In this document: positions 13,170 through 33,246 of the stretch, in pieces
Position numbering within the stretch: position 1 is the stretch's first letter
Layout: every line of letters begins with the position of its first letter
IMG/VR virus record: IMGVR_UViG_3300020057_000106
Coordinates: 1 to 33,246 of that record
DNA: 33,246 bases
From: a virus
Strand: one strand, 5' to 3'
Translations under genes and position numbers: made by a program
Notes under the pieces: model-generated
Database searches by the model: none
The model's input: the letters and a program-made list of their open reading frames with translations, nothing else
Told to the model about the DNA's origin: nothing

Positions 13170-13487
13170 ATGGAGGAGACTGAAGGGGAATTTCAGAAGC
13201 GAGTTTTAGATCATCTTAGATTGGACAAAAGAATAGCGCTCATTTGGAGGCACGATTCAGATCGAGTGAGGGCGAGGAAGACGAGATCTAGAGATCGCAT
13301 AGGGCTTCCGGACATTCAGGGTTACACGTCAAAAGGGGAATCTTTCAATTTAGAATTAAAGCGACCGAGTGGTGGGAAGATGAGGCCTGCTCAGGAGGCG
13401 TTTATTTTAAAGTGCCAATCTCTTAAAATTAGGGCGGGTTTTGCGAGGAGTCTTTTAGAGGTAGAGGCTATTATTTTTGGTGAATGA
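13170..13487 (+). CDS. VRR-NUC domain nuclease
   Basis: The 105-aa protein (ATG 13170; an in-frame GTG at 13146 would add 8 residues, and neither has a clear ribosome site). It matches the VRR-NUC/PD-(D/E)XK pattern: GLPDIQGYTSKGESFNLELKRP, where the Asp of GLPD and the E and K of ELK form the expected metal-binding catalytic triad, followed by a Gln (PAQEAFI) and a C-terminal SLLEVEAII strand-helix. The length is right for a stand-alone phage VRR-NUC protein. Such enzymes cut branched DNA or act as structure-specific nucleases in phage recombination or packaging. The substrate here is unknown. Confidence 0.8.
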   Translation: MEETEGEFQKRVLDHLRLDKRIALIWRHDSDRVRARKTRSRDRIGLPDIQGYTSKGESFNLELKRPSGGKMRPAQEAFILKCQSLKIRAGFARSLLEVEAIIFGE

Positions 13488-13704
13488 GTGGGGTGGTGTG
13501 GTGTGTTTGTAATTTTTCTAATTTCTGGAGATCAGAGGCAATAGGTTTGAAGTGAGCGGCTGTGTATCTCATCCAGAGGGATATATTTCCGCCGGAGTAT
13601 TTTTTTGAGAGTTTTTTTATATCAAGCATCTCGCTCTCGAGGATTCGAATATTTCTGACGGTTGACTTATCTACGAGCGGTATTTTCGTTTTAATCATAT
13701 TCAT
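13471..13704 (-). CDS. Putative ribbon-helix-helix regulator
   Basis: Reading leftwards from ATG 13704 (a second Met lies two codons in) gives 77 aa. The part NIRILESEMLDIKKLSKKY then SGGNISLWMRYTAAHF has the strand-helix-helix layout of CopG/Arc-like proteins: a short beta strand, a helix starting at ESE, and a Gly-Gly-Asn-Ser turn leading into a WMRY helix. Longer upstream frames carry no such pattern. It is divergent from the gene at 13837, with AT-rich palindromes between them, as expected for a small DNA-binding switch. Its 3' end overlaps the convergent nuclease by 17 bases. No ribosome site is evident. Confidence 0.5.
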   Translation of the reverse strand: MNMIKTKIPLVDKSTVRNIRILESEMLDIKKLSKKYSGGNISLWMRYTAAHFKPIASDLQKLEKLQTHHTTPLIHQK

Positions 13705-13729
13705 ATTCAATAATACACGAGCTTCTTTG

Positions 13730-13739
13730 TAAAGTGTTA
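13730..13739 (-). promoter_or_regulatory. Recurrent TAACACTTTA motif, minus-strand copy
   Basis: On the minus strand TAACACTTTA lies 25 bases upstream of the ATG of the ribbon-helix-helix gene. It is the only copy pointing leftwards. Like the plus-strand copies it lies just 5' of a gene, which supports a directional role. Confidence 0.45.
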
Positions 13740-13753
13740 GTTCGTATGGACGC

Positions 13754-13839
13754 TGTATACAATATACACAAGCATTGATTATCATTGATCTTTTTGAGGG
13801 TATTGCATGTATATACAAGTCATGTATACTGAATATATG
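13754..13839 (+). promoter_or_regulatory. Promoter with palindromic operators; transcript may be leaderless
   Basis: TTGCAT at 13803-13808 and TATACT at 13825-13830 are separated by 16 bp, a good sigma70-type promoter. The predicted start, about 7 bases past the -10 box, coincides with ATG 13837, and there is no Shine-Dalgarno sequence, so the mRNA may be leaderless. The spacer contains an imperfect palindrome (GTATATACAAGTCATGTATAC region, 13809-13829). A related GTATACAATATAC lies at 13754-13766. These could be operators for the divergent ribbon-helix-helix protein. Confidence 0.55.
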
Positions 13840-15140: not shown

Positions 15141-15439
15141 TTGATGATGATATTGAATGTAGGAAGCGGCCAACCAAATTGCTCACTGGCGATTCTGTTC
15201 AAAGATTCCTGCATGAGAGGATCCTTGGACGTGGTGGCCGCCTTTCTTAGGGCTGTAAAGGCCTCTAATATTTTGAAATAATCTTCTCCATCCACATAGT
15301 AGCGTTTGTCTATTTTTTCCCATCGAGTGCGAGCCAGCCAAGGGAGGTCTTCTGTCGTTATTTGTTCAAGAGCCTCACCGCATTTAATATTTTGAGGAGG
15401 CACTACAGATAGAAGTGCTCCGAGGATAATAGAGATCAT
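15137..15439 (-). CDS. Small protein with hydrophobic N terminus, unknown
   Basis: The 100-aa product starts at ATG 15437-15439 in an ATGA overlap with the Dam stop; AAAGGCG within the Dam tail is the ribosome site. Residues 1-13 (MISIILGALLSVV) are hydrophobic and short, consistent with a weak signal peptide or anchor. The rest is soluble, with a helical region (YFKILEAFTALRKAATTS). It starts with the same junction sequence as the 54-aa gene at 16426-16590, although the bodies differ. Function unknown. Confidence 0.5.
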   Translation of the reverse strand: MISIILGALLSVVPPQNIKCGEALEQITTEDLPWLARTRWEKIDKRYYVDGEDYFKILEAFTALRKAATTSKDPLMQESLNRIASEQFGWPLPTFNIIIK

Positions 15440-16416
15440 TTTTCGCCTTTCAGTTTTTTCAACGTGTGATTGGAAAATAAAACTTCTACGGCGGCTTCAT
15501 TGCCGAATAGTTTTTCGACCGACACGTTTTTTTCTTTTGTTTTTTTATTTCTTAGAGCCATGAGAGTTTTTATATCTTTTGGCGCATCGTACTCAGACAC
15601 AAAGACTGGCTGAGATTGTTTTTTAACCCACTGCCAAAACCTGTCGTGATCGAACTCCTTAAGATAGCCGGTCGTATTTTTATAAGGTGGGTCGCAATAG
15701 ATAATTGAGTTAGGTTTTATTTTTACCTGCTCATAGCTGAGACTGGTTATTTCAAGCGCCCCTAGATTCTCTATCTGCTCGAGCCGCTGTAGCCGCTCTA
15801 GCTGCTCTAGCTGCTGTAGCTGCTCTATCTGCTGTAGCCGCTCTAGCCGCTCTAGATGCTGTAGCCGCTCTATCTGCTGTAGATGCTGTAGCTGCTTTAG
15901 CTGGCCGCCAAGCTTTTTTGTCATAATATTCCGGCAGAGGAGCCTTCTGCCTCTGATCGAAAGATGCTCTGGCCATTTTTTAATACAAAGAAGTTTCATG
16001 GAGTTGTCATCAAATTCACCGAATACAACAGCGTTATGGAGTGATTTTTTATCACCTTCAATTTCTTTTCCGAACATATAGGTCCTCTGACCATTTCCGA
16101 AGCTCCAGAGGATGCGAGTATAAGGGCATGTATCTTTGTCACGAACGAACGTCTCTCTATCGATCCATTTTGGTTTGAAAACGTTGTAATTATATTTCCC
16201 TGCTATGGCTTCTTTAATGAGATCGCCGTTTCCTTTTTCAATTTCGTTAAAGTAAAAATGTTTATATTTAGAACGATGATGAAGGATCATGTAGTGAGTG
16301 ACAGAAAACCCGCCACCGAATAGGTCGTAGAAATGATCGGCCGAAGGAAAGATGGAGGTTATTTGATGAACGAGTTTATCTTTAGATCCTTGGTAGGGGA
16401 TTCCGTAGTTAGCCAT
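15436..16416 (-). CDS. dam: DNA adenine N6-methyltransferase, Dam/D12 type, with repeat insert
   Basis: The 326-aa protein has the order expected for D12-class adenine methylases: PYQGSK (residues 7-12) and DLFGGGFSV (31-39) for AdoMet binding, NEIEKG near 57-62, and the catalytic DPPY at 242-245, followed by SEYDAP. It would methylate adenine N6, probably protecting phage DNA or marking it for regulation; the target site cannot be read from sequence. Residues about 173-222, just before DPPY and in the region between catalytic motifs where specificity often lies, consist of [LI]-[EQ]-[QRH] triplets encoded by about fifteen 9-bp units. ATG 16416 follows GAGAGCGAAAA, a weak ribosome site. The C terminus KKLKGEK is repeated as a remnant at 16587-16649. 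Confidence 0.8.
   Translation of the reverse strand: MANYGIPYQGSKDKLVHQITSIFPSADHFYDLFGGGFSVTHYMILHHRSKYKHFYFNEIEKGNGDLIKEAIAGKYNYNVFKPKWIDRETFVRDKDTCPYTRILWSFGNGQRTYMFGKEIEGDKKSLHNAVVFGEFDDNSMKLLCIKKWPEHLSIRGRRLLCRNIMTKKLGGQLKQLQHLQQIERLQHLERLERLQQIEQLQQLEQLERLQRLEQIENLGALEITSLSYEQVKIKPNSIIYCDPPYKNTTGYLKEFDHDRFWQWVKKQSQPVFVSEYDAPKDIKTLMALRNKKTKEKNVSVEKLFGNEAAVEVLFSNHTLKKLKGEK
15771..15905 (-). repeat. 9-bp combinatorial minisatellite inside dam
   Basis: About fifteen 9-bp units run without interruption. In coding sense each unit reads (C/A)TA-(G/C)AG-(CAG, CGG or CAT), giving Leu or Ile, Glu or Gln, and Gln, Arg or His. Variation is nearly confined to one or two positions per codon and is almost always amino-acid changing; Leu is CTA and Gln is CAG throughout. 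Gain or loss of units keeps the frame. This is the most regular tandem repeat in the window. Confidence 0.9.
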
Positions 16417-16590: not shown

Positions 16591-16649
16591 TTTTCGCCTT
16601 TTAGTTTGGTCAATGTGCGATGACTAAATTTGGTCACTGCTGAAGCATC
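16587..16649 (-). pseudogene. Remnant of a second Dam C terminus
   Basis: In a frame different from the overlapping 3' end of the fibronectin-like gene, the minus strand reads AVTKFSHRTLTKLKGEK and then TGA. This matches the real Dam end (VLFSNHTLKKLKGEK and TGA), including the ATGA overlap with the following start. The nucleotide stretch AAACT(A/G)AAAGGCGAAAAATGA is nearly identical in both. The simplest reading is that a second adenine methylase gene once lay here, or that a dam end was copied with its junction. Confidence 0.55.
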
Positions 16650-17332
16650 CGAAGTTCACTTGGAAGCGGAGGTAATTTAAACTCCCTTACGACAGGCTCT
16701 CGATTTGAAAATCTATCTTTAGGATGCATACCAGGGCGGTAGCGTAAGAAATGTTTCAACTTTTGCCACCGAGAAGCGGGTGAATAGGAAAGGCCCTTTT
16801 TTAACGGAATGAAGTCCGCTCCCGTTTTACTGGCAGCTGTAAGACTCAATCCTTTTTCTCTTAACTGAAAAAATAAATGAGGCTCGGTGGTATTAAACAT
16901 AATGGTGAGGAGATCGGAGCCGGCCACTCCAGAATGAACAGGAGCCCAGTTTATTAAATCCTCGGAGCCCATTACTTCGTAAACCATTCCTCGATAAACA
17001 TCGGATACCATGGTCATGACCACATTTGGACCATCCCTATGCTGCGAGATTTTAAAAGTTGGTTTTAAGAAATAATTTAGTTGGTTTGAAGGATCTGATT
17101 CTAATGAGTCTGTAGCCGCCGTCACGTGCCAGCTGTATCTTTGAGCAGGCTTAATTTCAAAAGTCACGGTGGTTTCGGTCGAAGGTACGCTCAGTTTATA
17201 GATGAGCTCCGTTTGATCTCCTGTCTTCTCATAAAGTTTATAACTGGTGATCCACTCAGCACTCGAAGAAGGGTCCCATGCAAGTGAAACCGAAGAAGCT
17301 GAAACAACAAATAAAAATAAAAATCCAAACAT
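16634..17332 (-). CDS. Exported fibronectin-type-III-like protein
   Basis: The 232-aa product has ATG 17332 preceded by TTAGGAG at the usual distance. Residues 1-18 (MFGFLFLFVVSASSVSLA) form a signal peptide. Residues about 18-88 fit a fibronectin III domain: AWDPSSSAEWITSYKLYE, then VPSTETTVTF, then YSWHVTAATDSLESDPSNQL. Residues about 105-155 (YEVMGSEDLINWAPVHSG, then PHLFFQLRE) resemble a second beta domain seen in bacterial surface proteins. The C-terminal 60 residues are basic and Pro-rich. It is odd for a phage to export a soluble FN3 protein; it could act at the host envelope (superinfection or adhesion). It heads the leftward operon containing dam. Confidence 0.6.
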   Translation of the reverse strand: MFGFLFLFVVSASSVSLAWDPSSSAEWITSYKLYEKTGDQTELIYKLSVPSTETTVTFEIKPAQRYSWHVTAATDSLESDPSNQLNYFLKPTFKISQHRDGPNVVMTMVSDVYRGMVYEVMGSEDLINWAPVHSGVAGSDLLTIMFNTTEPHLFFQLREKGLSLTAASKTGADFIPLKKGLSYSPASRWQKLKHFLRYRPGMHPKDRFSNREPVVREFKLPPLPSELRMLQQ

Positions 17333-17378
17333 AAAAATCTCCTAACTCCAAAACCCTTACCACCAAAACCCTGAGTCG

Positions 17379-17407
17379 TATATACAGATTATTTTAACTT
17401 CTGAAAT
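17379..17407 (-). promoter_or_regulatory. Weak candidate promoter for the leftward dam operon
   Basis: Leftwards, TTTCAG (17401-17406) and TATATA (17379-17384) are 16 bp apart, about 50 bp before ATG 17332. The -35 box is poor. It abuts the twin palindromes at 17407-17454, which would then be activator or repressor sites. Confidence 0.3.
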
Positions 17408-17454
17408 TGCACATTTCGGTGCATTTAATGGATTTTGCACATTTCGGTGCATTT
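17407..17454. repeat. Twin palindromic repeats, operator-like
   Basis: TTGCACATTTCGGTGCATTT occurs at 17407-17426 and again without change at 17435-17454, spaced 28 bp. Each contains the inverted repeat TGCAC-N6-GTGCA, typical of a dimeric DNA-binding protein's site. The pair lies between the leftward terminator and the start of the leftward operon, so it is placed to control that operon. Replication iterons are an alternative, but there are only two copies. Confidence 0.65.
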
Positions 17455-17460
17455 TTGAGT

Positions 17461-17510
17461 AAAAAAAAACTCCAAGAAAATCGCTTGCAGAAAGGGATCC
17501 TCTTGGAGTT
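17461..17510 (-). terminator. Strong leftward intrinsic terminator
   Basis: A perfect 10-bp inverted repeat (AACTCCAAGA at 17468-17477, TCTTGGAGTT at 17501-17510) with a 23-base loop is followed on the minus strand by nine T. It can only serve transcripts moving leftwards, that is, RNA made from the non-coding stretch to its right, since no leftward gene lies between here and 20.3 kb. Confidence 0.8.
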
Positions 17511-18041
17511 AAACTTCGTTTACGACAGAAGCTTGAAGGTCATTAAAACCACACAAGGTAAATATCAGCAAGCTTAATGTCGTCGTCTTTGTCTCCGGCT
17601 AGTCCAGTTTAGACGTAAAACTAAATCAGCCGGGCTGGTTACTCATAGGGTATGGGATAAGGATTTAATAATACGGCAGAATCACTTGAAAACTAGTTAC
17701 AAGGCCCCAAGTGAATTGATCCTTGGTTTCATAAATATAGTGTTAAAAAATAAGCAGAATTGAGAATAGGCGATAAGTATGCCGAGACTTCCTTACTAGT
17801 TTTCTTTGTCTAACTCTAAGAGGTTAATCCTCTAAGCTCCTAAAAGTACTTTCTTCTTTGAAAGGATAGCAGGGAGTAGTTCTTGAATTCTGTTTATCTA
17901 CGAATACGTTAACGTGCTTCTCTCCAGGTTTTCCTAAAAGGCTTCTCGTCTCTAAAACAAGGGACCAGAAATCATAGCAGCAGGAAAAAGGGGCCTACCT
18001 TGGCCTAAAGGTTTTCTCTAAATTCAATGACCCGAAAAGTT
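17461..18041 (-). ncRNA. Candidate structured leftward RNA, about 580 nt
   Basis: The stretch 17333-18075 (743 bp) has no credible gene in any frame that I can find. A TATACT box on the minus strand (18048-18053) could start a leftward RNA near 18041; the terminator at 17461-17510 would end it. Helices visible: 17522-17527 with 17578-17583 continuing as 17529-17535 with 17569-17575 (13 bp in all); 17595-17600 with 17628-17633 enclosing 17608-17612 with 17621-17625; 17688-17697 with 17795-17804 (10 bp); 17682-17688 with 17708-17714 (7 bp, crossing the former, so a pseudoknot or a switch); 17819-17823 with 17829-17833; 17837-17840 with 17873-17876 enclosing 17849-17853 with 17860-17864. I do not recognise it as tmRNA, RNase P or tRNA. 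Function is unknown. Confidence 0.5.
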
Positions 18042-18075
18042 TGACTTAGTATATACACCTGGCTAAGAGATTTTC
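18041..18075 (+). promoter_or_regulatory. Divergent start region of early genes and leftward RNA
   Basis: TTGACT (18041-18046) is a good rightward -35-like box, with TAAGAG (18064-18069) 17 bp on as a poor -10. The same bases, AAGAGA, are the most likely ribosome site for ATG 18076, so the real rightward start may lie further upstream. On the minus strand TATACT (18048-18053) is a good -10 with only a weak -35. The two promoters would overlap. Assignment is tentative. Confidence 0.35.
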
Positions 18076-18618
18076 ATGAAAGAAACTTTAAACGAAATAC
18101 TCGATCAGGCTCACCAAATAACCAAGGCCCTTATCTCCAGCGAAGGTGAAATTACCCCAGAAATCGAACTCCTCATTAACCTCCAAGAAATCTCTCTCCA
18201 CCAAAAAGTAGACGCTATCGCCTACATCGAAGCCCAACTCGAAAGTAATGCCGCCCTATTCAAAGCCAAAGCCTCCCAGTTCGCTTTAATAGCAAAAGGC
18301 CTAGAAAGATCTCAAGACTACCTCCGAAATCGCGTAAAGACCGAAATGCTTTCGCGTGGACTCAAATCCTTGGAAGGCTTGGATCACCGAATCACTCTTT
18401 CTGAAGCCCCCTCAAAAGTAGCCGTAAGCCCACTTACCGAAGACGACCGCCTAAACGCTAAAGCCCTCGGACTCCTCAGGGAACGAATTATCGAAGATCC
18501 CGATAAAGACATGATCAAAGCCTACCTATCCGCCGGACGCCCCCTCGCCTGGGCCCACTTAGAGCCCGTCCATAGCCTTAGAATCTCCGTTAACGCCAAA
18601 CCAAAGGAACTCTTATGA
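18076..18618 (+). CDS. Gp157-like phage protein
   Basis: The 180-aa protein starts at ATG 18076, with AAGAGA 6 bases upstream. Residues about 35-115 match the Sipho_Gp157 pattern: a K-D-A-Y segment (LHQKVDAIAYIEAQLESNAA), a coiled coil with Glu/Lys (FKAKASQFALIAKGLERSQD), then YLRNRVKTEMLSRGLKSLEG and a beta-rich LDHRITLSEAPSKVAV. Proteins of this family sit beside phage recombinases. Some family members were linked to phage resistance or recombination; the biochemical role is not established. Overlap with the ERF gene (ATGA) confirms coupling. Confidence 0.7.
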   Translation: MKETLNEILDQAHQITKALISSEGEITPEIELLINLQEISLHQKVDAIAYIEAQLESNAALFKAKASQFALIAKGLERSQDYLRNRVKTEMLSRGLKSLEGLDHRITLSEAPSKVAVSPLTEDDRLNAKALGLLRERIIEDPDKDMIKAYLSAGRPLAWAHLEPVHSLRISVNAKPKELL

Positions 18619-19262
18619 AAAGCGAAGCCACCGACGCTCTAGCCAAAGCCCTCTCCGACGCTCAGGCCGAAATGCCTAACCCAGAAAAAAATAAATCCGT
18701 CGATATCCTCACCAAAACCGGCCGTAAAATTAGCTTCAAATATGCCGACCTCGGCGCTCTTAAAGAAGTCTCCAAAAATGCCCTTAAAAAATATGAACTC
18801 TCCATCGTGAACTCTCTCGAACCACTCGGAGATAAAATGTACCTTAAAACAGAAATCCTCCACTCAAGCGGTCAGTGGATCAACTCCCTCTTTCCCCTCA
18901 CCGGCTCCGACGATATCAAAGAATTCGGTGGAGAAATAACCTACGCCAAAAGATACAATAAAGCCGCCCTCCTCGACCTCTTCGCCGATGACGATCAAGA
19001 TGGTGATGAACTCATAAGCCCTTCAAAAAAAATACCCCCAACACTCTCCAATGATTTGCCCAAATCCATCCACTCTCCCTTCCCAAAATCACTCGTCTCA
19101 GCCGATCAAATTAAAAGACTCTTCACCATCGCCTCCAAAGCCTATTGGTCTAATGAACAACTTAAAATGTTGATCTCCTCCTACGGCTATGAAAGCACCA
19201 AAGAAATCACTCGCGAAATTTACGATGAAATTGTCCAAAGAATTCAAGATGGGCACGCGTGA
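18615..19262 (+). CDS. erf: ERF-family single-strand annealing protein
   Basis: The 215-aa protein starts in an ATGA overlap. It shows the ERF pattern: FKYADLGALKEVSKNAL near residues 40-57, KTEILHSSGQWINSLFPL at 78-95, and the diagnostic GGEITYAKRYNKAALLDLFA followed by an acidic DDDQDGDE stretch. ERF proteins form rings that anneal complementary single strands in phage recombination and in joining genome ends. The C-terminal 60 residues (SADQIKRLFTIASKAYWSNE) are a separate helical domain often seen after ERF or RecT domains. Codons are strongly C-ending, unlike the left half of the genome. It ends DGHA at a junction repeated after the next gene. Confidence 0.85.
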   Translation: MKSEATDALAKALSDAQAEMPNPEKNKSVDILTKTGRKISFKYADLGALKEVSKNALKKYELSIVNSLEPLGDKMYLKTEILHSSGQWINSLFPLTGSDDIKEFGGEITYAKRYNKAALLDLFADDDQDGDELISPSKKIPPTLSNDLPKSIHSPFPKSLVSADQIKRLFTIASKAYWSNEQLKMLISSYGYESTKEITREIYDEIVQRIQDGHA

Positions 19263-19741
19263 AAATCTCCGTAAATAGTGATATTATTAAATCATTACTT
19301 CCTTGCGAAGATAGACTGGTTAATTATCTTAAACATTACAATGAGTTCAACTTTGATATTCTAGAATTCCTGGCTCTGGACAAAATAACCCCTGAAGATA
19401 AAATCTGGGTATCAGTTAGACTCATGCCTAAAGAATTAGTTCAAAGGTTTGCTATGGATTGTGCCTCTAGGGCTTCTACTTATGCAGCTAAGTCTGTTGA
19501 TGCTACTTATGCTGCTCAAGCTGTTTCTCATGCTTCTTATGCTGCTTCTTATCCTGGTCGCATTGATCTCTTTGCTTATGACGCTGCTTATTATGCTGAT
19601 CTCGCTTCTTATGATGCTGCTAGGGCTGCTTCTTATGCTGCTTCTTATGCTGCTCTCACTGCTGATCTCACTACTGAAGAACGAGAATTGCAATTGAAGT
19701 CTATTGCTCAATTAATCGAAACCCATGACGGGCACGCTTGA
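19259..19741 (+). CDS. Ala/Tyr/Ser repeat protein
   Basis: The 160-aa product starts at GTG 19259 in a GTGA overlap with ERF. Residues 1-67 are ordinary and helical (PCEDRLVNYLKHYNEFNFDI). Residues about 66-137 are a low-complexity repeat of Ala-Ala/Ser-Tyr/His/Asp units such as SYAASYAALTAD and YDAARAASYAASY, likely an extended helix with Ala/Tyr faces. The repeat DNA uses GCT, TCT and TAT almost exclusively, while flanking genes prefer C-ending codons. Related Ala-rich repeat proteins occur in many phages without known function. It ends DGHA like ERF. Confidence 0.6.
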   Translation: MKISVNSDIIKSLLPCEDRLVNYLKHYNEFNFDILEFLALDKITPEDKIWVSVRLMPKELVQRFAMDCASRASTYAAKSVDATYAAQAVSHASYAASYPGRIDLFAYDAAYYADLASYDAARAASYAASYAALTADLTTEERELQLKSIAQLIETHDGHA

Positions 19742-19951: not shown

Positions 19952-20296
19952 GTGGAGGAGGATGATGATTTTAAAAATTTCAATCCAAAAACTTTTTGGG
20001 CAGAAGCAAATAATGAATATATTCCAGGACCAAAAATAACCAATAAAGACTACCACCTCCTCGAATTACTCATCCGCTTCCTAAAAAATGAAAAAAGCAT
20101 CCTTCAAATTATCGAAAAATTAAATGTCAAACGCCTCGAAGTCCTAAGACTCCTCCACCTCTTAAGATCCCTTCACGGAATTTCTACCGACCGAATCGAA
20201 GCCAAAGGCACCATGTTCTATAAAGCTCACGACTCTCGGATAAATGATAAAATTGAAATTAAAAAAAAGAATCACGGGATGAGAGGCTGGTGCTAA
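19952..20296 (+). CDS. Putative winged-helix protein
   Basis: The 114-aa protein starts at GTG 19952 (no strong ribosome site; GTGGAGGAG may itself obscure it). Residues about 33-75 (YHLLELLIRFLKNEKSILQI, then NVKRLEVLRLLHLLRSLHGI) have the three-helix layout of a winged helix, with a possible wing at STDRIEAKGTMFYKA. It may bind DNA and regulate the early region. Its stop overlaps the stop of the convergent lipoprotein gene by three bases. Confidence 0.5.
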   Translation: MEEDDDFKNFNPKTFWAEANNEYIPGPKITNKDYHLLELLIRFLKNEKSILQIIEKLNVKRLEVLRLLHLLRSLHGISTDRIEAKGTMFYKAHDSRINDKIEIKKKNHGMRGWC

Positions 20297-20550
20297 TTCT
20301 TTTTACGATGCAAACAATAATCCATCGCAATCCCATAATCTTCCACAGGCATCATTACTAATTTATCAGGACATTCCATCATGTCAGGATAAAGAGGCGC
20401 ATTAAAAGAACACTCAAAAGGATTGTTCTTGTCGTCTACACAATGCGCTTTAGATCGAACCTTATCGTAAAGACAAAGAGTGATCGGCGGCATCTTCCGA
20501 CAAGAATTTAAAAATAATATAAAAAAACTACAAACCAAGAATCGAATCAC
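20293..20550 (-). CDS. Small lipoprotein, candidate outer-membrane spanin
   Basis: Leftward ATG 20548-20550; 85 aa. Residues 1-17 (MIRFLVCSFFILFLNSC) form a lipoprotein signal with lipobox L-N-S-C, so Cys17 would be lipidated and exported to the outer membrane. The mature part has several Cys and Pro (MPPITLCLYDKVRSKAHCVD). It begins inside the 3' end of the gene upstream, in another frame, as outer-spanin genes often do relative to the inner spanin. In Gram-negative phages the o-spanin/i-spanin pair fuses the two membranes at lysis. Usual o-spanins are more Pro-rich, so the call is tentative. Confidence 0.55.
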   Translation of the reverse strand: MIRFLVCSFFILFLNSCRKMPPITLCLYDKVRSKAHCVDDKNNPFECSFNAPLYPDMMECPDKLVMMPVEDYGIAMDYCLHRKKN

Positions 20551-20740
20551 GTAACTCCTTAACAGCTGTCTTATACTGCTCTTCCGTTATCGCATCCCTT
20601 GTGTCCTGAAGCGCTCTCGATTTCAGCTCCAACCACTTCAACTCATTGTTTCGCTGATTCGCGGCCACTAAAAGCTTAAAATTTTTAGAAATTTCTAAAA
20701 AAGCCTCCAGGGCCACTCGAATCAAAGCGATAATAGACAT
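20528..20740 (-). CDS. Candidate inner-membrane spanin
   Basis: The 70-aa protein (leftward ATG 20738-20740) has a hydrophobic N terminus (MSIIALIRVALEAFLEI) that could be a short anchor, followed by a charged helical region (NNELKWLELKSRALQDTRDA). Inner spanins have an N-terminal anchor and a periplasmic coiled coil. It overlaps the lipoprotein gene by 23 bp, the usual layout of two-component spanins. It is shorter than a typical Rz protein, and the anchor contains Arg and Glu, so certainty is limited. Confidence 0.45.
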   Translation of the reverse strand: MSIIALIRVALEAFLEISKNFKLLVAANQRNNELKWLELKSRALQDTRDAITEEQYKTAVKELRDSILGL

Positions 20741-20748
20741 CTTAAAAA

Positions 20749-20994
20749 TTAATCAACATCAGGTATAGATGCATCAATCTCTTTTGCTAAAAGATCTGCT
20801 TTCTTAAGAATCTCATCTTTCGATAAAAGACTCTCCTCCAATACCAAAATCTTAGCCGATAATTCTTCAATTTTTTTTAAAAGCTCCTCTACTCCAGGAT
20901 CTACATCCTCAATAGATTCCACTTTTGATCGAAGCACTCCTACACTGCCCTCAACCACTACCAATAACTCTTGTAATTCTGATTTTAATGACAT
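20749..20994 (-). CDS. Coiled-coil protein in the lysis cassette
   Basis: Leftward ATG 20994 is preceded by AGGGGAAAATATA; a longer frame from 21015 overlaps the holin stop but has no ribosome site. The 81-aa acidic protein is nearly all Leu/Glu/Ser/Lys heptads (LKKIEELSAKILVLEESLLS). No TM or signal peptide is visible. It lies between holin and inner-spanin candidates, so an accessory role in lysis is possible. Confidence 0.5.
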   Translation of the reverse strand: MSLKSELQELLVVVEGSVGVLRSKVESIEDVDPGVEELLKKIEELSAKILVLEESLLSKDEILKKADLLAKEIDASIPDVD

Positions 20995-21005
20995 TATATT
21001 TTCCC

Positions 21006-21215
21006 CTATTCCCAAATTAAAATCTTACCCGACGTCACTAAACGAAGCGTAAGACCCACGACAGATATACCACCCAAAACAACACTCGAATTCGCTTGTA
21101 CCCACTCATGAAGATTTGGAATAAATCCAAGCCCAGAAATGATCGCTAATAATCCAAGTAATGAATTGTAAATAACCGTTTTACTCTTCCAAAAACCCTT
21201 AGATTCCATTTTCAT
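21006..21215 (-). CDS. Two-TM holin-like protein
   Basis: Leftward starts at ATG 21215 or ATG 21209 are both plausible: AAGGAGG lies 3 bases before the first and 9 before the second, and the second spacing is closer to ideal. The 67-69-aa protein has FWKSKTVIYNSLLGLLAIIS, a loop with PNLHEWVQAN, and SVVLGGISVVGLTLRLVTSG, giving two TM helices and a basic turn. The pattern SKT..N near the start and LRLVT near the end is common in small phage holins. It lies directly after the muralytic gene. It would release the enzyme to the cell wall. Confidence 0.65.
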   Translation of the reverse strand: MKMESKGFWKSKTVIYNSLLGLLAIISGLGFIPNLHEWVQANSSVVLGGISVVGLTLRLVTSGKILIWE

Positions 21216-21263
21216 TGTCCTCCTTCTTTCAGTATTTAAAAAAAGTGTAACACGTGAAACCAT

Positions 21264-21812
21264 TCACACGATCGGTTTATTCGAAACTAACTGAGAATAA
21301 GTACTCAATGCCTTCTCCCCATATTTGATCACGGCCTCGTTAGGATGCTTTAAAGCCCCAAGACCTCCATTATAACAACGAAAAATACTCTCCGCTTTCG
21401 TCGCCCCACTCTTAATTAACGAATTGATATATTTAATCACAAAAGGAAGCGACCCCTCCAACTTCTGCAAATCCATCGGGTTAGAACTTAATGGAAACCC
21501 ATGCTCCCGTGCCACCACCCATAAAATCTGATGACACCCATACGACATCGCTGCCGTATCCCCCCAATAATCATGACCCTGCCGTAAAAGCGCCGATCGC
21601 CTATACGCTATCGAACTCCTCGAATACCCTGCCTCATACCTCGGCCGAGCCGCCGCCCCGTAAGACGACTCCATTTCCGCTATGCACATCAAAAGTACAA
21701 ACTTATCCCCCTCAAATTTTAAATGCGGTGCGTAAAAAAGCGTAGTCTCTCTTAAAATCTCACGCGTAACTAAACCATTCGATAACTCGTTAGATGAATA
21801 CGACATATCCAA
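21264..21812 (-). CDS. SLT-type lytic transglycosylase, likely endolysin
   Basis: The 182-aa product has the GH23/SLT pattern: LLMCIAEMESSYG around residues 41-51 with catalytic Glu (E48 in the MESS motif), SYGCHQILWVVAREHGF (90-106) for the G-x-x-Q-I motif, and YNGG (147-150). It cleaves the MurNAc-GlcNAc bond of peptidoglycan, releasing anhydro-muropeptides. No signal peptide is visible, fitting a holin-dependent endolysin. The start is uncertain: TTG 21812 and in-frame ATG 21806 both lie 16 or more bases past the strong AAGGAG site (21829-21834). It leads the leftward lysis operon. Confidence 0.75.
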   Translation of the reverse strand: MDMSYSSNELSNGLVTREILRETTLFYAPHLKFEGDKFVLLMCIAEMESSYGAAARPRYEAGYSRSSIAYRRSALLRQGHDYWGDTAAMSYGCHQILWVVAREHGFPLSSNPMDLQKLEGSLPFVIKYINSLIKSGATKAESIFRCYNGGLGALKHPNEAVIKYGEKALSTYSQLVSNKPIV

Positions 21813-29139: not shown

Positions 29140-30444
29140 ATGGCTATTGATACAGGAACACTAAATGCACTTTATAAAGTTGCTTACGCTAAGGGCGTAG
29201 AAGATTTAATACCTAAAGCTAATAAATTATCAGACATGATTCCGTTTGTTTCTTCTGATCTTCAAAACGGCAAACATTATGAGCAACCAGTGGTGCTTTC
29301 TGCTGAAGCAGGTTTCACCTACTCACTCGATTCACAATCGGCTTATGATTTAAATGATTCTATTGGTATGAATATGGAATCAGCCGTTGTTCCAGGAGCG
29401 GATATCGTTCTTGATTCGACAATTGGTTATAATCAAGCTGCTCGTGCTTCTCACTCAGCGACTGCTTTCAAGAGCGTCATGAGTACTAAATTTGAGAACA
29501 TGTTGAAGTCAGCCGAAAAACGTCTTGAAATTGCAATGCTTTACGGCAATGGCAATATTGGTTCAGCCGCTCTTCAGGCTGTTGTCATCGCATCGTCAGA
29601 GCTTCCTATGGTTATTGACACCGCTAGCTGGGCAACAGGTATCTGGGCTGGTAGCGAAAATGCGAACGTTGTTTTCACTAAAGCTTCTGACAATTCCTCT
29701 GTTGATTCACTCCGATCTTTCAAGATTGCTAAAGTGGATGTCGACACACGTACGATTTATCTTGCGGCTGGAACTGCTGGAACCGCTGGTACTTTGAGCA
29801 CCTTAGAAACAGCTATTGAAGCCTATGCTTGCAATATCAATTTCTATGGATCTGTTTCCGGAAGTGCTGGAACGTTTGCCTATGCTGAAATGGCTGGCCT
29901 TAAGAAAATCATCACCAATACTGGAACTTTATTTGGTATTAGTGCTTCTAGTTATGATCTTTGGCAGGGTAATTCAGTGACTACCTCAGGTCAGCTGACC
30001 ATGGCTAAAGTATTGAGTGCCGTATCTCGTGCCGTTCAACGCGGTCTTGATTCAGATGCTACAGTACTTGTGAACCCATCGACCTGGGCCGATCTTGCAA
30101 GTAATTTAGCCGCTCTTCGACGATTCGATGGAAGCTACAGCCGAAGTAAAAACGTAAATGGTTCGAAAGAACTTGAATACGTTTCTCAAAACGGAGCTTT
30201 AAAGATTTGTTCTTACAACATCGTTAAAGAAGGCGATTGTTTCATCTTCCCTGAAGATAAGGTGATGCGAATTGGAGCACGTGAGTTGGGTCTGAACGAT
30301 CCTACTCGTCCTCAAGATGAAATTTTCTTCACTATTCCTGCAAAAGCTGGCGTAGGGGTGAGAGCTTACACTAACCAAGCGGTCTTCGTAGAAGCTCCTG
30401 CTCAGGCTGTGTATATCTCTGGGATTGTAAATAGCTTAGCGTAA
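29140..30444 (+). CDS. Major capsid protein
   Basis: The 434-aa protein has ATG 29140 with TGAGGAG about 9 bases upstream. N-terminal LNALYKVAYAKGVEDLIPKA and the helix FKSVMSTKFENMLKSAEKRL resemble the N-arm and spine helix of HK97-fold capsid proteins of podoviruses. A central domain (residues about 150-260) has alternating strands. DSDATVLVNPSTWADLASNL and KICSYNIVKEGDCFIFPEDK are typical of the P domain in this class, ending with GVGVRAYTNQAVFVEAPAQA. The size fits. It is followed by a strong terminator, as expected for a heavily expressed gene. Confidence 0.85.
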   Translation: MAIDTGTLNALYKVAYAKGVEDLIPKANKLSDMIPFVSSDLQNGKHYEQPVVLSAEAGFTYSLDSQSAYDLNDSIGMNMESAVVPGADIVLDSTIGYNQAARASHSATAFKSVMSTKFENMLKSAEKRLEIAMLYGNGNIGSAALQAVVIASSELPMVIDTASWATGIWAGSENANVVFTKASDNSSVDSLRSFKIAKVDVDTRTIYLAAGTAGTAGTLSTLETAIEAYACNINFYGSVSGSAGTFAYAEMAGLKKIITNTGTLFGISASSYDLWQGNSVTTSGQLTMAKVLSAVSRAVQRGLDSDATVLVNPSTWADLASNLAALRRFDGSYSRSKNVNGSKELEYVSQNGALKICSYNIVKEGDCFIFPEDKVMRIGARELGLNDPTRPQDEIFFTIPAKAGVGVRAYTNQAVFVEAPAQAVYISGIVNSLA

Positions 30445-31097: not shown

Positions 31098-33246
31098 TTG
31101 TCGATAGTTCTTACGATAAATGGTGTTGGATACGATTACCCGGAAACGGATGATCAAACGTGGGGCCCGGATGCGACCGAGTGGGCTATAGCCGTAACGG
31201 CTGGGATGCTTCAAAAATCTGCAGGGCTTTTTCAGGTTTTAGCTGAATTAGATTTTGGCTCTGCTTACGGAGTTAAAGCTCTTTATTATAAGACGCGCAC
31301 AACTAATATTGCGGACGCTGGTCAAATCAGACTTGCGAGAGCGGACACCATCGTTTTTAGAAACCAGGCTAATAGTGGGAATTTAGTTCTGGGTATCGAT
31401 ACAAGTGATCGACTGACTTATAACGGTAATCCGATTATTGATTCAGCGGCCTTAACGGCTTCGAGAGCTTTAGTTTCAAGTGCGGCTGGTGTCATTTCGG
31501 TGTCTTCTGTTACTTCCACAGAGCTTGGATATGTTGGAGGGGTTACGTCTTCGATTCAAACGCAGATTGATGCGATTTTAGCGGGAGATGTAGAAGGTCC
31601 CGTTTCTAGCACCGATAATGCCATGACTCGATTTGATGGAATCACTGGAAGGCTTCTTCAAAATTCAGGCGCTATTTTAGATGATTCAAATAATCTCACT
31701 GGTCTTACAAGTGTAGTAGCGAACGGCATTACGATAGGGAGTGCGGCTAACAGAATTTCTGGTTTAGCGACCATTATTAATTCTGGAACTCTGACATTGC
31801 CTACTTCGACCGACACGTTGGTTGGAAGGGCGACGACGGATACGTTAACGAATAAGACTTTAACGGCACCAGTGATTGCGACGATTGTTAATTCTGGGAC
31901 GCTCACTCTGCCCACATCAACGGATACACTTGTTGGAAGGGCGACGACGGATACGTTAACGAATAAGACGCTAGGTAGTCCTACATTTACAGGGCAGCTG
32001 AGTCTTCCAAACGGCACCGTAGCTGCGCCGACACTTTTATTTTCAAGCGCTGGTATTTATTCCACTGGTGCACAAAATATAGATTTTTCAGTTAACGGTG
32101 TTCAAACAGCTAATTTCAATTCGGCCTCAGCGATCATAAGAACGAATTTGCAGATTCAAGGTGGTGGAGCGGCTAGTCCGGGTTTGAACTTTCAAAGTAG
32201 CCCGGTGGCTGGCCTTTATATGACCACAGTGAACATTATAGGGTTTGCGACGGCAGGAGTTACAGCGGGGACCATTAATGCTTCTCAAATATGGAGTATA
32301 GGAGTTGGAACGGCGGCCACACAAATTATAAACGGTGGCGCACTTAGACTTCAATCGGGCGCTACCTCTGAGTTTGCCATCATTGGTGATTCAGGAAACG
32401 CCTCTTCTATTTCTTTAACGGGAGCGGGAGCGAGTTCAAACGGTGGTGTGGTTTCTGTTTATGGAAATTCTCACGCATCAAAAGCGAATGTCATAGAATT
32501 TCTAAATGCTGGATCGGCTAGTTCGAATTTTGATGCGAGTGGGCATTTAAATTTATTAGGTCAGCGGGCGCTTCGGCTACAAGATACGACTGGTGGAGAG
32601 TATGTAGGATTACGAGCGTCTTCGACTCAGACCACTTATACGATTACTTTTCCTTCGGCCGCACCAGCTACGAATGCTTTACTAAAATATGATGGAGCCA
32701 ATTATATTTGGTCTCTCGAAGGTGACGTAAGCGGTCCGGTAAGTTCTACAGATACAGCCGTCGCTAAATTTAGCGGTACTACGGGAAAGATTCTTCAAGA
32801 CACAGGTGTTTTAATTGATTCTGGTAACAGCGTCACAATGAACAGGCTAGCCGTTGGTGGATCAGCAATATCTTCGAGTGGGATTTTAAACAACAGCCCA
32901 ACAGCTGTACAAAATCCTTTAAGTGGAGTTACTCAGAGAGCTTTCAGAACAAGCATGGTTGGAACTTCTGCGGCCACCACAGAAGTAGTAGGATTTAGTT
33001 CTGCGGTAAGCACTGAAGCTGCTACATTTACCGCCGCGCTTCGAACACATTTTCACTTTGCAGATCAGGCTAAAGGCGCTGGAAGCACCATTACAAGAGA
33101 TATAGCTTTTGGTGGAAGTATTCCAACACAAGGCACGAATAACGCCCTGCTCGCTGATAATACTGCCTTTACAGGCGACTGGGTCATTAATAGTACTAGC
33201 ACAAGTCCGTCTCTTTTCTCTGGCCCTATGGAATGGAAGCAACAAG
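31098..33246 (+). CDS. Tail fibre, N-terminal part (runs off the window end)
   Basis: TTG 31098 is chosen because AGCAGGAG lies just upstream and no ATG follows for long; the frame is open to the last base and continues at base 2 of the window. The N terminus (INGVGYDYPETDDQTWGPDA, ATEWAIAVTAGML) is a short virion-attachment-like region. Then come fibre modules: GDVEGPVSSTDNAMTRFDGI (with LLQNSG), two copies of a 37-residue TLPTSTDTLVGRATTDTLTN unit, TFTGQLSLPNGT and NSHASKAN. These modules are frequent in tail fibres of unrelated phages. The last 656 bases are a variant of the first 656. Confidence 0.8.
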   Translation, partial: MSIVLTINGVGYDYPETDDQTWGPDATEWAIAVTAGMLQKSAGLFQVLAELDFGSAYGVKALYYKTRTTNIADAGQIRLARADTIVFRNQANSGNLVLGIDTSDRLTYNGNPIIDSAALTASRALVSSAAGVISVSSVTSTELGYVGGVTSSIQTQIDAILAGDVEGPVSSTDNAMTRFDGITGRLLQNSGAILDDSNNLTGLTSVVANGITIGSAANRISGLATIINSGTLTLPTSTDTLVGRATTDTLTNKTLTAPVIATIVNSGTLTLPTSTDTLVGRATTDTLTNKTLGSPTFTGQLSLPNGTVAAPTLLFSSAGIYSTGAQNIDFSVNGVQTANFNSASAIIRTNLQIQGGGAASPGLNFQSSPVAGLYMTTVNIIGFATAGVTAGTINASQIWSIGVGTAATQIINGGALRLQSGATSEFAIIGDSGNASSISLTGAGASSNGGVVSVYGNSHASKANVIEFLNAGSASSNFDASGHLNLLGQRALRLQDTTGGEYVGLRASSTQTTYTITFPSAAPATNALLKYDGANYIWSLEGDVSGPVSSTDTAVAKFSGTTGKILQDTGVLIDSGNSVTMNRLAVGGSAISSSGILNNSPTAVQNPLSGVTQRAFRTSMVGTSAATTEVVGFSSAVSTEAATFTAALRTHFHFADQAKGAGSTITRDIAFGGSIPTQGTNNALLADNTAFTGDWVINSTSTSPSLFSGPMEWKQQ
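31821..31969 (+). repeat. 111-bp tandem unit in the tail fibre
   Basis: A 38-base stretch at 31821-31858 is repeated exactly at 31932-31969, offset by 111 bp (37 codons); flanking bases are similar but carry several synonymous changes. The repeated peptide is the DTLVGRATTDTLTNKTL motif. The mix of exact and diverged parts suggests duplication followed by local gene conversion. Confidence 0.85.
32591..33246. repeat. Right copy of the imperfect 656-bp terminal repeat
   Basis: This copy is the counterpart of bases 1-656. Most of the 28 differences change an amino acid (for example Q/E, T/V, N/D, L/I, S/P), and none shifts the frame. Differences start at base 128 of the repeat and become denser towards its end. 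Confidence 0.85.

Follow-up and report, generated by a model that had tools for sequence, protein, structure and literature searches.

A gene-free stretch of an uncultured tailed phage with a strong leftward terminator and a three-hairpin domain, a candidate source of untranslated RNA

Results

A gene-free stretch between divergent genes

The window, the whole stretch of DNA analyzed here, is a virus record of 33,246 bases that encodes a tailed-phage structural cassette with a terminase and an SU10-like portal. Its sole long stretch without a credible gene separates leftward fn3/methyltransferase genes, which occupy 17332-15137, from rightward Gp157- and ERF-type early genes (Table 1). The first-pass annotation of this DNA had described 743 bp without a credible gene, and that description holds. 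It had also reported no leftward gene for more than 2 kb to the right of the terminator described below; the nearest is indeed 20293-20550, within a set of leftward lysis-like genes at 20293-21812, one of which carries a transglycosylase SLT domain.

A conserved protein within the stretch was looked for, and no match to Pfam or PHROGs was found in any of the six frames of 17333-18075. The minus strand of the same interval contains no ORF of at least 15 amino acids with a Shine-Dalgarno-like sequence. A pseudogene origin was rejected for want of a family match in the six frames.

Several other features of the window deserve record. The gene at 15436-16416 encodes a D12-type adenine methyltransferase whose usual domain is split by an inserted run of LQQLEQLERLQ-type repeats. 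The protein encoded at 19259-19741 has tandem repeats of the ASYAASYAA type and matches no family. The end of the record, 32850-33246, repeats with small differences the start of a fibre-like gene at 248-1489, which places the contig end within a gene that is duplicated.

Table 1. Coordinates of features in and near the gene-free stretch; folding z-scores are relative to shuffled sequences.
Feature	Position	Strand	Details
Gene-free stretch	17333-18075	none	743 bp; between leftward 16634-17332 (fn3-domain protein) and rightward early genes from 18076
GTATATAC palindrome upstream of leftward fn3 gene	17378-17385	none	over weak leftward promoter
Two identical 20-bp repeats, TTGCACATTTCGGTGCATTT	17407-17454	none	28 bp apart; each a small hairpin
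Structured domain, hairpins A, B and C	17457-17646	-	about 190 nt; closable by GAGUAA/UUACUC; z about -5.5
Hairpin C with T9 tail, strong leftward intrinsic terminator	17466-17512 (terminator 17461-17512)	-	-21.2 kcal/mol; z -5.3
Hairpin B	17524-17590	-	long stem, AAGCTTG/CAAGCTT arms, no T tail; for 17515-17590, z -2.5 minus, -4.2 plus
Hairpin A	17588-17635	-	CCGGCTG...TAGCCGG stem, no T tail; z -4.5 minus, -2.7 plus
5' two thirds of proposed RNA	17647-18045	-	no folding signal; z +0.8 minus, -0.8 plus
Promoter-like site, sigma-70-like, leftward	18048-18077	-	ATGAAA-18-TATACT; predicted start near 18041; rank 23 of 66,438 scored window positions
GTATATAC palindrome overlapping leftward -10	18049-18056	none	8-base
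GTATATAC palindrome copy in divergent gap at 13.8 kb	13809-13816	none	

A leftward terminator and a three-hairpin domain

Hairpin C is the most stable terminator-like hairpin detected in the window. On the minus strand it is a stable hairpin followed directly by a run of nine T, the arrangement of an intrinsic terminator, and there is no T run on its plus side; the earlier description of a strong intrinsic terminator that works leftward only is therefore upheld. Hairpins A and B are not terminators, because they lack T tails. Together the three hairpins make up a domain for which the minus strand scores z -5.4 to -5.5, with none of 200 shuffles equally stable and the minimum free energy structure identical to the centroid structure. 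For the plus strand of this interval the score is -5.7 to -6.4, and for the interval folded as DNA it is -5.2. Because hairpin A favors the minus strand, hairpin B the plus strand, and hairpin C neither, folding cannot show which strand acts, or that the action is by RNA; folding is about as strong on one strand as on the other and in DNA form, so an RNA role for the hairpins is not required.

Sliding windows confine the entire folding signal of the stretch to this domain. For the minus strand of 17455-18060 as a whole the z-score against shuffles is -1.9, and it weakens to -0.4 once the terminator is left out. The first-pass annotation had anticipated structure along the whole of an RNA of about 580 nt, including a pseudoknot; no such structure was seen in the comparison with shuffles, where the 5' two thirds lack a folding signal. 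The pseudoknot helices are present as letters, but 7-bp pairs are about as common in 17647-18045 as chance predicts (8 against 5.9 expected), and the single 10-bp pair is only weakly unusual (0.12 expected, with 7.8% of shuffles reaching it). With no folding signal in the 5' two thirds and no support for the pseudoknot, the proposal of a large structured RNA fails.

A promoter-like site, a recurring palindrome and direct repeats

A leftward promoter-like site stands at the right-hand end of the stretch. About half of one promoter of such score is expected by chance in the gap, so the evidence for it is modest. Overlapping its -10 element is one copy of the palindrome GTATATAC, of which the window has three copies where 0.16 would be expected, every one at a divergent or promoter-like gap. 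This pattern of recurrence suggests that GTATATAC is a candidate operator shared by one phage regulator. The ORF at 13471-13785, which adjoins the 13809 copy, is a candidate for that regulator; it has no family match, and an AlphaFold2 prediction made without an alignment was of low confidence and uninformative (pLDDT 52). The direct repeats TTGCACATTTCGGTGCATTT have the terminator on one side and the leftward fn3 gene on the other.

Searches for relatives

The first-pass annotation proposed comparing the stretch with homologs and with Rfam. No homolog emerged from structural-gene relatives, phages, plasmids, IMG/VR pattern searches, or about 700 bacterial genomes. DNA similarity searches of phages and plasmids returned chance-level matches alone. 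Hunts through IMG/VR with the ERF, Gp157, fn3 and TerL proteins found no relatives, and likewise none were obtained by way of a two-sequence portal alignment. A portal motif pattern retrieved 40 IMG/VR contigs, and the nearest genomes in this set, full or partial (G007, G010, G017, G037), have portals 69-72% identical to that of the window. The protein encoded at 29140-30444, in the position of a major capsid protein, is up to 83% identical in the closest relatives. These four genomes have the structural cassette in common with the window; their early genes differ, and no counterpart of the gap was found in them.

A single-sequence covariance model (R1) was built on the 190-nt domain. Searched against 41 related records, it found the window alone, at the modeled place and as a weak opposite-strand match (26 bits, 17376-17523), where the self-complementary terminator hairpin is read in the other direction. 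Three bacterial genomes, one phage, one contig and 398 genomes of one phylum gave no match to the model. A DNA search of 296 genomes of another phylum gave one 37-nt match with an E-value of 7e-4 per genome, unremarkable because it was found over 296 genomes. A degenerate pattern of hairpin B had no match in an IMG/VR pattern search, and a search with the 20-bp repeat led to one contig sharing just a 17-mer. The absence of relatives is weak evidence, as the searches span part of existing sequences. The stretch is an orphan candidate of unproven mechanism.

Discussion

Leftward transcription of the stretch probably yields an untranslated RNA in which folding exceeds chance over the last 190 or so bases alone. 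An untranslated leftward transcript of about 580 nt is plausible because the terminator is real, the promoter-like site at 18077-18048 fits that length, and protein signal is absent. What stays plausible of the new non-coding RNA first proposed is the transcript, but not its large structure. Taken as a whole, the explanation we tentatively prefer is that a phage control region gives rise to an untranslated RNA, either a leader or a small RNA.

We infer the following course of events. In this uncultured tailed phage the stretch would serve as a divergent control region, with a leftward promoter at 18077-18048 that would fire divergently from the early genes and would be gated by a putative regulator binding GTATATAC. 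The resulting untranslated RNA would run for about 580 nt to the terminator at 17461, with three hairpins formed by its last 190 nt or so. Most likely it would serve as a leader and termination zone ahead of the leftward fn3/methyltransferase genes. Most transcripts would stop at 17461, leaving those genes to a promoter of their own that is controlled through GTATATAC, and a stable small RNA consisting of the hairpin end may remain. Small and leader RNAs of phage divergent control regions include lambda oop and the HK022 put RNA, which likewise involve transcription beside early genes and hairpins ahead of an intrinsic terminator. Unlike those, the RNA proposed here has no long complementary target that an antisense search within the window could find.

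Somewhat less probable is an explanation without any dedicated RNA, in which the terminator halts leftward read-through from the lysis-like genes at 21812-20293, running antisense across the early genes, before it reaches 17332-15137; hairpins A and B would then be incidental or would slow the polymerase, and a leftward transcript of about 580 nt in the stretch could be the tail end of that read-through. The first-pass annotation held that the terminator implies a transcript with no protein product, a conclusion that is not forced: leftward genes exist at 20293-21812, no leftward terminator candidate of -9 kcal/mol or lower lies between 17989 and 21911, and the sole strong one is at 17469. Transcription that crosses early genes and stops short of 17332 would be ordinary phage design. 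Read-through does, however, leave hairpins A and B, with no T tails, unexplained, and likewise the coincidence of promoter-like site and palindrome at 18048-18077.

A rather unlikely alternative, a little behind read-through, is that the stretch acts as DNA, as a replication landmark or genome end (a fork meeting site, an origin, or the ends of a linear genome), with its inverted and direct repeats as protein-binding sites. One observation in this direction comes from base composition at 4-fold sites, measured over 2430-24443, the stretch itself having no coding sites. Plus-strand G as a share of G+C drops from 0.75 to 0.085 at 17.02 kb and rises to 0.50 at 24.60 kb, which puts one change point beside the gap. 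From 18.1 to 24.0 kb the bias is equal in plus-strand genes (G20:C278) and minus-strand genes (G5:C79), and this equality marks it as replication-type, against a simple transcription-coupled bias. An abrupt switch independent of gene direction points to a replication or genome-end landmark; related phages have weak skew only, and the switch may be a more unusual feature of the window than the RNA proposed for the gap. The DNA explanation would also accommodate hairpins that fold equally well on either strand and the two 20-bp direct repeats. Phage origin and packaging-end regions with iterons and inverted repeats are similar in being gene-free, with direct and inverted repeats and a skew switch. 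They differ in that no initiator was found here, and 6 kb separate the stretch from the terminase genes. The leading strand is usually G-rich (PMC3269016); on that rule forks would converge at the gap, which would then be no origin but a terminus or the place where a linear genome has its ends. The window shows no enrichment of DnaA boxes, with 62 near-matches against 67 expected and no cluster in the gap, and mosaic modules could account for part of the bias.

These three explanations, of leader or small RNA, of read-through insulation, and of a DNA site, stand close together and are partly compatible. We regard as improbable a fourth, an undescribed class of phage RNA of about 190-580 nt, repressor-controlled and placed at a switch of replication polarity, perhaps with a role in replicating the genome or in processing its ends.

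An RNA of the GOLLD/ROOL type, large, ornate and structured throughout its 580 nt or so, is very improbable, for all that length and phage setting speak for it, since shuffles fold as well as its 5' two thirds, the window has no tRNA genes, no homolog was found, and Rfam searches of the stretch at gathering and loose thresholds, even at E 5, returned no match, the GOLLD and ROOL models included. ROOL forms a homo-octameric RNA assembly. Both are phage-borne RNAs often found near tRNA islands, GOLLD often being longer than 800 nt with tRNAs nearby and ROOL having a highly complex secondary structure with multiple pseudoknots (PMC12286853). The RNA proposed here resembles them in being untranslated, phage-borne and of comparable order of size, yet it measures at most about 580 nt, has no tRNA genes beside it, and has pairs at chance level where the pseudoknot was proposed. 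With no model match, no tRNA genes and no extended structure, filing it under GOLLD or ROOL is unwarranted.

The main outcome is a correction of scope, from a structured RNA of 580 nt to a structured domain of 190 nt. If the RNA exists, it would be one more orphan among the many unsolved untranslated RNAs of phages. Should the stretch prove to be a replication site or a genome end instead, its very strong skew would make this phage a convenient case for studying the origin of strand asymmetry.
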